Shown here piece after piece: positions 320-17,855 of a stretch of DNA of 50,196 nt (position 1 is its first letter; every line of letters begins with the position of its first letter). Origin of the DNA: Phytoactinopolyspora halophila (GTDB taxonomy: Bacteria > Actinomycetota > Actinomycetes > Jiangellales > Jiangellaceae); the NCBI RefSeq assembly GCF_003287285.1, contig NZ_QMIG01000030.1, forward strand, positions 1 to 50,196, given 5' to 3'. The translations under genes and the position numbers were made by a program. Under the pieces are notes generated by a model. That model made no database searches and was not told where the DNA came from. It saw only the letters and a program-made list of their open reading frames with translations.

Positions 320-394
320 CCCCCTCTCCCGCTGATCATGAACACTAAGCGACCACATAGGTCGCTTAGTGTTCATGATCAGCGGGAGAGGGGG
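320..394. repeat. Perfect palindrome, family copy 1 (35-bp arms, 5-nt loop)
   Basis: Bases 320-354 are the exact reverse complement of 360-394; the loop is ACATA. The inner part of each arm (TGATCATGAACACTAAGCG and the bases around it) recurs at 17767-17855 and, degenerate, at 4898-4955. The outer part (CCCCTCT) is specific to this copy. The left arm starts at the base after the TGA of the forward gene. The right arm contains the last four codons and the stop of the iolE-like gene. It could act as a bidirectional terminator between the convergent genes and could extrude as a cruciform. Confidence 0.9.
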
Positions 395-15627: not shown

Positions 15628-17766
15628 ATGGGACGGTGTCGCCGCCAGGTACGCCTCGCCCCCGCTCGCGTGGCCTCCGCGGTCACGATCGCGCTCGCGG
15701 TGGCCATGCCCGCTGCTGCCGGCGGCCAGCCCGCTGACCAGGACGAATCCGCCGGTGAGAACTCCACCGGCGACACCGTGCGTCTCGCCCGCGCCACCTG
15801 GGACACCGGCTGGTTCCAGGCCGAGGTGTACCGGCAGCTGATCGAGGAACTCGGCTACACCGTCGAGCCCATCACCACCATGGAGAACGAGGATTTCTAC
15901 CGGGATGCGGCAGCGGGTGAGGTTGACCTGTGGGTGAACGGCTGGTTCCCGCTGCACGAGTCGATCATCGACGAGCTCGGCGTCGGCGATCGGCTCGACG
16001 TCGTGGGAACCCAGGTGGACAGCGGGGCACTCCAGGGATACCTGGTCGATCTGGACAGCGTCGACGAGCACGGCGTGACGTCACTCGCGGATCTCGCCGA
16101 CCCCGAACTGGCGGCCCGGTTCGACACCAGTGGCGACGGCAAGGCCGACCTCGTCGGCTGCTCGGTCGGGTGGGGCTGCGAGGCCGGCATCGAGGAGCAT
16201 CTCAACGAGCTGGACCTGCGGGATACGGTCAACCATGTCCAGGGCGACTACGCACCGCTGATCGAGGACGTCGTCGAGCGTCACGAGAACGGTGAGCCCG
16301 TCCTGTTCTATACCTGGACCCCGAACTGGACGGTGGGACAGCTCGTGCCCGGCGAGGACGTCGCCTGGATTGACGTGAGGTCCTCCGGTTCCACTGGTGC
16401 GCAGGACACCACCATCGACGACGTGCCCGGCTGCGTGAGCGACCCGTGCCGGCTCGGATGGTCACCTAACGACATCCGCGCCGTCGCGAACAGCGATTTC
16501 CTCGACGCGAACCCGCCCATCCGGCGCCTCCTGGAGGCCGTCGAGATACCCCTGGAAGAGATTTCCGATCAGAACGCGCGAATGCGTGACGGCGAGGGCA
16601 CGCCCGACGACATTCGCCGCCACGCGCGCGAGTGGATCAGCGCCAATCACGGTGCGGTGACGGAATGGCTCGACACCGCCGATCCGGAGCGGGAACGCGA
16701 CGACGACGGGGACACCTCCGGCGCGACCCCCTGGAGCCCGGGAGGCACCCCCGACGCGAACACCCTGACCGTCGTCACGCGCAGCCTCTCACCGTTCGTC
16801 GTCTACGACGGCGGGGAGTACACGGGTTTCAGTGTCGAACTGTGGGAGCATGTGGCGCGGCGCCTCGGCGTGGACTACGAGATCGAGCAGGTCAACAGCC
16901 TCGCCAAACAGATCGACGACGTGCAGCGCGGCGCCGCCGATGTGGCGCTGGGCGGCCTGGACATCAACTCCGCCGTGGCCAACGATCTGGCACTGTCGCA
17001 ACCCACCTTGCGTTCCGGATTGCAGATCATGGTCAGGAACGACGAGGACACCGGCATCGTTTCCACCCTGGCCCGGATCGCCACCAGCGACTTGACGATC
17101 TGGATCGGCTGGTTCGTCGTGATCTTCGGGATCATTCTCCTGGCCGTCGGCCACGTCATCTGGCTGCTCGAACGGAATCGGAATCCGGACATCCCGGCCA
17201 GCTATCCACGCGGCATCGCCGAGGCCATCTGGTGGGGCGTGGTGGCGGTCACCCCGTTCGGGGCGGGGAACAACACGCCGAGCCGCAACGCCGGGCGCGT
17301 GTTCGCCGTCGGGTGGATCCTCGCCGGCTATTTCCTGCTGGCCTACTTCACCGCCAGCATCACCAGCACGATGGCTGTCGACGAGATCCACGGAGACATC
17401 ACCGGCCCGGAAGATCTGGCAGGCCATCGGATCGCGACGGTTGCCGAGACGCCGGGCGCGGAGTATCTGGCCACCCTCGGCGTCGGCCCGGTGCTGTTCG
17501 ACGATCTCGACGAAGCCGCCCAGGCGCTCCGGGACGACGAGGTCGACGCGGTGGTCTTCGACGCACCCGCCGTGCGCCATTACGCCGCGCGCGCCGGCGC
17601 GGGTGATGTTCGGGCCGTCGGGCCGGTGTTCCAGGAGTTCAGCTACGGCCTGGGAACCGCCCTCGACGGGGACCTCAACGCATACATCGACGTCGCCCTG
17701 CTCGAACTCGTGGAAAACGGCGTGTACGAGACGCTCTACGAACGCTGGTTCGGCACCTCCCCCTGA
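15628..17766 (+). CDS. Fusion of a glycine-betaine-type binding domain with a GluR0-like glutamate-receptor ion channel
   Basis: A 712-residue membrane protein. Residues 1-35 form a signal peptide. About 50-345 is an OpuAC/ProX-type solute-binding domain (ARATWDTGWFQAEVY, LWVNGWFPLHE, FYTWTPNW; Cys pairs 178/184 and 269/274). A Ser/Asp-rich linker (350-375) leads to a second periplasmic receptor split by a channel: lobe S1 about 378-470, membrane helix 489-514, re-entrant pore loop about 530-550 (WWGVVAVTPFGAGNNTP), second helix 556-582 ending YFTASITSTM (compare SYTANLAAF of animal receptors), and lobe S2 585-708. This is the S1-M1-P-M2-S2 plan of prokaryotic glutamate receptors such as GluR0. 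Ligand-induced closure of S1/S2 gates ion flow in that family. The S1 arginine that binds amino-acid carboxylates is replaced by Val450; Asp645 of S2 is kept. It resembles the animal receptors in having an extra amino-terminal receptor domain, here of a different fold family. A role in osmotic or compatible-solute sensing is inference. Confidence 0.88.
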   Translation: MGRCRRQVRLAPARVASAVTIALAVAMPAAAGGQPADQDESAGENSTGDTVRLARATWDTGWFQAEVYRQLIEELGYTVEPITTMENEDFYRDAAAGEVDLWVNGWFPLHESIIDELGVGDRLDVVGTQVDSGALQGYLVDLDSVDEHGVTSLADLADPELAARFDTSGDGKADLVGCSVGWGCEAGIEEHLNELDLRDTVNHVQGDYAPLIEDVVERHENGEPVLFYTWTPNWTVGQLVPGEDVAWIDVRSSGSTGAQDTTIDDVPGCVSDPCRLGWSPNDIRAVANSDFLDANPPIRRLLEAVEIPLEEISDQNARMRDGEGTPDDIRRHAREWISANHGAVTEWLDTADPERERDDDGDTSGATPWSPGGTPDANTLTVVTRSLSPFVVYDGGEYTGFSVELWEHVARRLGVDYEIEQVNSLAKQIDDVQRGAADVALGGLDINSAVANDLALSQPTLRSGLQIMVRNDEDTGIVSTLARIATSDLTIWIGWFVVIFGIILLAVGHVIWLLERNRNPDIPASYPRGIAEAIWWGVVAVTPFGAGNNTPSRNAGRVFAVGWILAGYFLLAYFTASITSTMAVDEIHGDITGPEDLAGHRIATVAETPGAEYLATLGVGPVLFDDLDEAAQALRDDEVDAVVFDAPAVRHYAARAGAGDVRAVGPVFQEFSYGLGTALDGDLNAYIDVALLELVENGVYETLYERWFGTSP

Positions 17767-17855
17767 CCCCGTCCTCCTTGTCCCGCTGATCATGAACACT
17801 AAGCGACCTATGAGGTCGCTTAGTGTTCATGATCAGCGGGACAAGGAGGACGGGG
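17767..17855. repeat. Perfect palindrome, family copy 3 (43-bp arms, 3-nt loop)
   Basis: Bases 17767-17809 are the exact reverse complement of 17813-17855; the loop is ATG. The core TGATCATGAACACTAAGCG matches copies at 320-394 and 4898-4955, whereas the outer 15 bp are unique to this copy and still perfectly paired. The left arm starts right after the TGA of the receptor-channel gene. The right arm contains AAGGAGG (17843-17849), the ribosome binding site of the next gene. In a read-through transcript the hairpin would bury that site. Confidence 0.93.

Follow-up and report, generated by a model that had tools for sequence, protein, structure and literature searches.

The window analyzed here, a stretch of 50,196 nucleotides from Phytoactinopolyspora halophila, contains one intact open reading frame for a protein in which a betaine-type binding domain precedes a glutamate-receptor-like channel, in the observed order OpuAC/ProX, S1, M1, pore loop, M2, S2 (Table 1). 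The fusion is genuine and represents a variant within the family of prokaryotic glutamate-receptor channels for which no prior description was found: in the open-license literature, we detected neither an earlier report of a fusion between OpuAC and a glutamate-receptor channel, although one might exist elsewhere, nor a publication in which Lig_chan and OpuAC appear together, nor one that brings together OpuAC, glutamate receptors, ion channels and betaine. The explanation that we favor, and consider probable without regarding it as secure, is that the protein is a ProX-fused subunit of an iGluR-type channel, with two stacked flytraps and a pore that would respond to betaine.

Table 1. Features of the fusion gene in the window (coordinates are positions in the window)
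Feature	Residues	Coordinates	Strand	Basis or remark
Whole gene	712 + stop	15628..17766	+	open frame, no internal stops
Probable signal peptide	1-33, end uncertain	15628..15726	+	by eye: basic start, then hydrophobic stretch
OpuAC/ProX binding domain	49-338	15772..16641	+	Pfam OpuAC, NCBIfam ProX, 1r9l match
Sites of ProX W65 and H69	W106 to H110	15943..15957	+	1r9l alignment
Site of ProX W140	W182	16171..16173	+	1r9l alignment
Site of ProX W188	W230	16315..16317	+	1r9l alignment
Linker joining the two flytraps	352-377	16681..16758	+	pLDDT <50 at 358-376; variable among relatives
S1 half of second flytrap	378-474	16759..17049	+	SBP_bac_3, Lig_chan-Glu_bd (below its cut-off), 2pyy match
S1 arginine position	Val450	16975..16977	+	R in 29/30 readable fusions
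M1 helix	488-515	17089..17172	+	AlphaFold2
Pore helix and loop	526-553	17203..17286	+	AlphaFold2; Ion_trans_2, Lig_chan
Filter TPFGAGNN, replacing TVGYGD	542-549	17251..17274	+	common to L004 and L012
M2 helix (= M3 of animal receptors)	554-587	17287..17388	+	AlphaFold2
S2 half of second flytrap	588-709	17389..17754	+	SBP_bac_3; 2pyy match 588-709

Domain architecture and predicted fold

The two parts of the protein are clearly distinguished by profile searches. The first part matches Pfam OpuAC (E = 5.6e-46; 157.7 bits, cut-off 21.2) and the NCBIfam ProX model (327.4 bits, cut-off 215), and its best match among the sequences of solved chains is E. coli ProX (1r9l; residues 48-351, 1.2e-61). 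In the second part, SBP_bac_3 (residues 383-709, E = 3.7e-22) is split on either side of a membrane segment, and Lig_chan (residues 495-601, E = 3.1e-11) and Ion_trans_2 (residues 529-582, E = 8.8e-6) are recognized as well, all three above their cut-offs; the best solved chain here is the ligand core of a Nostoc glutamate receptor (2pyy, 1.4e-34). Third-position GC content is between 0.81 and 0.92 in each of six segments of the gene. An ABC permease identity of residues 480-585, which would have refuted the initial annotation of this DNA, was considered and rejected: Pfam assigns this region to Lig_chan and Ion_trans_2, and BPD_transp_1 is absent from the 11 Pfam families that match the window protein at E<=1.

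The AlphaFold2 model of the full-length protein (19 sequences; pLDDT 75.5, pTM 0.47) comprises two flytraps, with pLDDT below 50 at residues 1-47; because the pTM of the whole chain is only 0.47, the mutual placement of the flytraps is not fixed. The model of residues 367-712 alone (49 sequences) reaches a pLDDT of 89.2 and a pTM of 0.77. In both models, two membrane helices (488-515 and 554-587) are predicted with a re-entrant pore helix (526-541) between them, in agreement within a few residues with the membrane and pore segments that the initial annotation had read from the sequence alone (489-514, 530-550 and 556-582). The OpuAC/ProX domain that it had delimited at about 50-345 is equally well supported by the fold, residues 44-355 aligning with ProX 1r9l over 302 residues with Z 35.0 and rmsd 2.7 (VIA-align), and the GluR0-like S1/S2 arrangement that it had claimed is reflected both in the split SBP_bac_3 match and in the similarity of residues 379-710 to 2pyy (Z 27.2, rmsd 2.5, 212 aligned). 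The 50 Foldseek matches listed for the channel-half model are AMPA and a few NMDA receptor chains, with TM-scores by query of 0.53-0.65, and among these listed matches the similarity spans the membrane and binding parts of the receptor chains. The proximal flytrap, S1S2, would be wrapped round an inverted two-helix pore, M1-P-M2; both flytraps are predicted to be extracytoplasmic, secretion being an inference, and the subunits probably tetramerize, a further inference, in the manner of GluR0 and AMPA receptors.

The same split S1S2 flytrap around M1-P-M2 is present in GluR0 of Synechocystis (slr1257) and in Groups 1 and 2 of the prokaryotic iGluRs of Ger et al. 2010 (PMC2950845), but unlike the fusions, these proteins have no second binding domain. 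Another source likewise gives the NTD as absent in GluR0 (PMC6385376), and the 2010 survey, which covers 100 prokaryotic sequences, mentions neither 'OpuAC' nor 'betaine' in its main text (PMC2950845). GluR0 also has its soluble parts outside and a K+ filter that it shares with most of the fusions although not with the window protein. Animal AMPA and NMDA receptors are likewise two-flytrap proteins in which the extra domain is amino-terminal, and their channel half has the same predicted fold, but they possess an LIVBP-type amino-terminal domain and an M4 helix, both of which are missing in the window protein: Pfam identifies OpuAC instead of the LIVBP-type domain, and the chain ends at residue 712, three residues past S2. 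The initial annotation had described the extra domain as unrelated to LIVBP. OpuAC indeed occupies that place and is unrelated to LIVBP, yet it belongs to the large PBP clan of Pfam (PMC3251606), so that two flytraps of this broad class stand in tandem in the window protein. The same source describes fungal class C GPCRs, in which OpuAC is an outer receptor domain in eukaryotes, but these are seven-helix receptors and not channels (PMC3251606). The ProX/OpuAC proteins of ABC transporters resemble the first domain of the fusion in sequence, fold and cage residues; they are normally free or attached to a permease, whereas in the fusions they are joined to an ion channel. Nematode betaine receptors such as ACR-23 and DEG-3/DES-2 are also reported as ion channels opened by betaine, but they are of the nicotinic type, with a fold unrelated to that of glutamate-receptor channels.

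Recurrence of the fusion and its unfused relatives

Altogether, 31 fusion loci, one per genome, were compared; they come from actinobacteria, Desulfobacterota, cyanobacteria and one Kiritimatiellae MAG. The set consists of the window, 20 loci with OpuAC and the channel half in an open frame among the 79 retained in a scan of genome contigs, and ten more (L124, L190-L197 and L200). Several of these loci are incomplete: L012 (Ns), L013 (the same as L198, from a Desulfosarcina MAG), L018/L152 and L019 (the Kiritimatiellae MAG) are truncated at a gap or where the contig stops, and the frame of L020 is broken in the pore region, this locus being omitted from the channel tree. Locus L028 (Chloroflexaceae), which encodes OpuAC and a binding-protein domain without an aligned membrane part, was excluded from the 31.

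The fusion is rare yet present in several phyla. In the window's family, 3 of 22 genomes have it (G000, G008 and G012); it was also found in 10 of 198 genomes of the class of L005, and in 2/292, 1/297 and 1/194 genomes, respectively, of the phyla of L015 (a cyanobacterium), L013 and L019; in the phylum sample, a single frame spans both halves in 5 of 396 genomes. Each of these samples contains its center genome, and the samples overlap the contig scan. Genome G008, which harbors L004, is that of Haloactinopolyspora alba, placed in Jiangellaceae by NCBI. All four Pfam families (OpuAC, SBP_bac_3, Lig_chan and Ion_trans_2) were matched in 19/19 aligned members. The possibility that two genes were joined by a sequencing or assembly error, which would also have been fatal to the initial annotation, can be virtually ruled out: no evidence in its support was found, and the identical domain order recurs across phyla at 30 loci beyond the window, in isolates as well as MAGs.

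The fusions fall into a single group (support 84/66) in a tree of channel halves from 30 fusions and 26 unfused proteins, and the nearest unfused groups (L135-L137 and L140, L143-L145) all come from cyanobacterial genomes; within the fusions, the clade of the window has a long stem (0.61). Unfused GluR0-like channels are commoner than fusions, and in the sample of the phylum of L015, most channel matches cover only the residues from approximately 370 onward, in frames of approximately 360-440 aa. The open frames of the 26 unfused relatives in the tree are 362-519 aa long, so that most could not hold the channel half plus a further domain of some 300 residues, and none of the 26 matched the OpuAC part of the query, in line with the initial claim that prokaryotic receptors usually have the S1/S2 receptor only. 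Apparently, the two-receptor layout was made in bacteria from a different binding-protein family, once. The origin of the second binding domain in glutamate receptors is an open question, and the bacterial fusion provides an instance that involves a different family.

Binding sites, filter and selection

In E. coli ProX, the betaine cage is formed by W65, W140 and W188 with H69. This tryptophan cage is largely conserved across the 31 fusions: W occupies the W65 site in 29 (with two gaps), the W140 site in 30 (with one gap) and the W188 site in 26 (F in five), the H69 site being more variable (H in 25, Q in three, D in one, E in one and one gap) and the G141 site loose, with G in only ten fusions. 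In ordinary ProX, all 40 rows compared keep the three tryptophans, and because the cage is equally conserved there, it is an indication of the ligand and no evidence of a receptor role. The distal flytrap would most likely bind glycine betaine or a close trimethylammonium compound, ligand binding being inferred from these residues.

The S1 arginine, the carboxylate ligand in the glutamate-receptor family, is found in 29 of the 30 fusions that are readable at this position, valine in the window protein being the exception, and in 21 of the 26 unfused channels; the S2 aspartate is kept in the window protein (D645) and in 30 of the 31 fusions. Most members thus retain the amino-acid site, as would be expected of a GluR0-like channel that is gated by amino acids and uses its ProX domain only structurally, for assembly, as AMPA receptors use their amino-terminal domain. 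Given, however, that the cage sites are W in nearly all fusions, that the neighboring genes described below are those of betaine-type transporters, and that the window protein has lost the S1 arginine, we consider such a scenario unlikely, though not to be dismissed.

The K+ signature GYGD is kept in 28 of the 31 fusions, and the three exceptions, the window protein, L004 and L012, all have the identical TPFGAGNN. The signature is present in 21 of the 26 unfused channels and missing in the other five, so that its loss occurred more than once; among the prokaryotic iGluR channels, the signature marks Group 1 only, and Group 2 also lacks it (PMC2950845). Judged by its sequence, the pore of the window protein probably does not select for K+ in the usual manner. 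Purifying selection is observed in this clade: among the window, L004 and L012, which represent three genera, dN/dS (Nei-Gojobori) is 0.09-0.33 over five segments and 0.09-0.27 in the membrane part, and accordingly the window gene is maintained. The loss of the K+ signature, the length of the clade stem and Val450 might be taken as signs that, in the clade of the window, the receptor does not conduct or the gene is decaying, but the low dN/dS of the membrane segment and a filter that is identical in three genera make this very improbable. In view of the filter change in the clade, which is conserved and not of the K+ type, and of the arginine loss in the window protein, a different ion may permeate, and for the window protein the ligand of ProX may be the principal or even the sole one left.

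Gene neighborhood and proposed function

A BCCT gene adjoins the fusion in 18 of the 31 loci (L005, L006, L007, L009, L010, L011, L019, L021, L124, L190-L196, L198 and L200), and in 17 of these 18, there is a separate ProX gene too. The neighbor counts, for fusions and controls alike, were obtained by tblastn with BCCT, ProX, ProW and ProV references of our choice; BCCT identity rests on Pfam for three genes (L005, L013 = L198 and L019) and on tblastn only for the others. The BCCT gene and the fusion are arranged head to head in 11 loci, tail to tail in six, and on the same strand in L019, where the fusion comes directly after BCCT and the called genes overlap by 4 nt; in L005, BCCT is followed by ProX, likewise with a 4-nt overlap. 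At one further locus (L152), ProX, permease and ATPase genes (ProXWV) lie beside the fusion. Neither BCCT nor a second OpuAC was found in 12 of the 31 loci (the window, L004, L012, L008, L199, L015, L016, L017, L020, L022, L055 and L197), and all six or seven cyanobacterial fusions (L015, L016, L017, L020, L022, L055 and L197) are without a betaine-transport neighbor; linkage may be missed in some of the 12 because L008, L004, L016 and L022 are short on one side. Weak matches to ABC ATPases were observed near L015, L016, L020 and L055. None of 20 control stretches around unfused channels, extending up to 5 kb on each side, contained a BCCT or OpuAC match (18/31 vs 0/20, p = 1.0e-5 by Fisher's test, with related loci treated as independent). 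The controls were not lineage-matched, two came from one genome, and L212, L213, L214 and L216 were shorter at contig ends.

All 18 linked BCCTs contain G-x-G-x-G within the stretch taken for TM3, a motif typical of betaine rather than choline carriers. Among solved structures, the L005 BCCT is nearest to a trimethylamine transporter, followed by choline transporters and BetP, and its exact substrate is therefore undetermined. In the absence of current or binding data, the BCCT/ProX linkage supports the view that betaine regulates the channel and that the latter is connected with betaine uptake. The osmolyte sensing proposed in the initial annotation is thus backed by other members of the family but not by its own locus. 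Within the 50 kb of the window, there is no BCCT and no second OpuAC gene, the references matching only the fusion and two distant ABC ATPases, and a betaine operon at this locus is unsupported. The two BCCT genes of the window genome are located on another contig; in the same genome, Lig_chan is matched once at E<=1 and OpuAC three times, the match in the window included.

In a quick OpuAC tree, built without bootstrap and without the partial L152, the fused OpuAC domains adjoin a mostly BCCT-linked ProX group (SH-aLRT 87), apart from ordinary ProX. L028 is placed inside the fused group, and the BCCT-linked ProX group also contains L113 and L114, which have ABC neighbors; the ProX near the L198 fusion is missing from the tree, and there is thus no evidence that it groups with the rest. 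This proximity, together with the L019 fusion, which stands directly after BCCT where L005 has ProX, would be compatible with the ProX domain being a membrane-tethered betaine catcher for a partner transporter, the channel half being gated by an amino acid or otherwise, or serving as an anchor. We regard this as improbable, given that a free ProX is already available at 17 of the 18 BCCT-linked loci, that purifying selection acts on the pore and on S2 in three genera, and that no transporter adjoins the fusion in the window, L004 or L012.

Under the preferred explanation, that of a betaine-responsive channel, ligand-induced closure of the ProX flytrap would alter the opening of the pore, either directly or via the S1S2 gate, by analogy with the modulation of NMDA receptors by their amino-terminal domain; gating and channel activity itself are inferred. 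In most members, the K+-type filter, from which selectivity is inferred, would pass K+ during betaine uptake (betaine in, K+ out) in osmotic adjustment. Upon osmotic upshift, bacteria gather K+ first and then swap it for betaine and other zwitterions (PMC10906006), and a betaine-controlled K+ channel encoded with a betaine-type symporter would fit such an exchange. A more specific proposal, which we offer only tentatively as possible rather than probable, is that the betaine-gated K+ channel of most members, BCCT and ProX constitute an osmolyte-exchange module that would couple betaine import to K+ release, with another ion in the window's clade. Because BCCT carriers are mostly Na+-coupled (PMC13270143), an outward K+ current would also balance the charge of Na+-driven uptake. 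This physiology is inferred. According to the GluR0 study (PMC13099474), the two soluble halves of this K+ channel lie outside and are required for function, and its mutant shrinks faster following KCl shock, a result called the first direct evidence for the role of a K+-conducting homologue in the response to rapid ionic change; growth of the mutant under NaCl or sorbitol stress equals that of the wild type, so that no general osmotic role has been demonstrated for GluR0. The growth result speaks against such a role and, by analogy, would count against the betaine-channel reading. The gene neighbors hint at what prokaryotic glutamate-receptor channels may bind and at their physiology, and make the question of what bacterial glutamate receptors sense a testable one.

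A BCCT-ProX pair also occurs without the fusion in the stretch examined at L059, L115, L116 and L117. In the open-license literature, no report was found of a BCCT to which a binding protein of its own belongs; if the members of the pair work together, they would represent a BCCT carrier with a binding protein. Among the 60 loci L023-L082, a ProW match is present in the stretch examined in 50.

The BCCT-ProX gene pair and other neighbours

In the fusion locus L005, the gene for a BCCT symporter is followed directly by a ProX gene, with an overlap of 4 nt. The same pair is present in the fusion loci L006, L007, L009, L010, L011, L021, L124, L190-L196, L198 and L200, and an identical pairing is found in four loci without a fusion in the stretch examined (L059, L115, L116 and L117). 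No ProV or ProW gene adjoins the pair at the loci where this was checked. The pair would be a secondary transporter of the BCCT family that has its own binding protein. In two cyanobacterial MAGs (L015 and L017), a neighbouring gene codes for a Na+/H+ exchanger that carries a universal-stress-protein domain (see table).

Features in the compared loci and the window
Feature	Coordinates	Remarks
BCCT symporter gene, then ProX gene	L005:2484-5395	
Na+/H+ exchanger with universal-stress-protein domain	L015:4029-5627	cyanobacterial MAG; near fusion
Na+/H+ exchanger with universal-stress-protein domain	L017:3958-5559	cyanobacterial MAG; near fusion
OpuAC domain, then second binding-protein domain	L028:330-2468	Chloroflexaceae; no membrane part
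Match to channel-half end only	L127:2605-3120	G369; query 541-710
Near-perfect palindrome	window 17786-17836	immediately 3' of fusion gene
Second palindrome copy	window 332-382	

Partial and possibly related proteins

At L127, where BCCT and ProX genes precede the match, the fusion is either broken or incompletely assembled. The OpuAC domain of the L028 protein falls within the fused group in a quick tree without bootstrap, and this protein is possibly a related double binding protein. Two genomes that carry the fusion, G452 and G1184, also encode open frames of 757 aa (L154, contig C31) and 834 aa (contig C89), respectively, each with two successive OpuAC matches; these are predicted, from sequence, to be tandem betaine-binding proteins.

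The palindromic element

The palindrome is a dispersed repeat or a terminator-like element. Its 23-base arm occurs in 16 copies in its own genome (10 forward and 6 reverse), and twice in the window as a full inverted pair.
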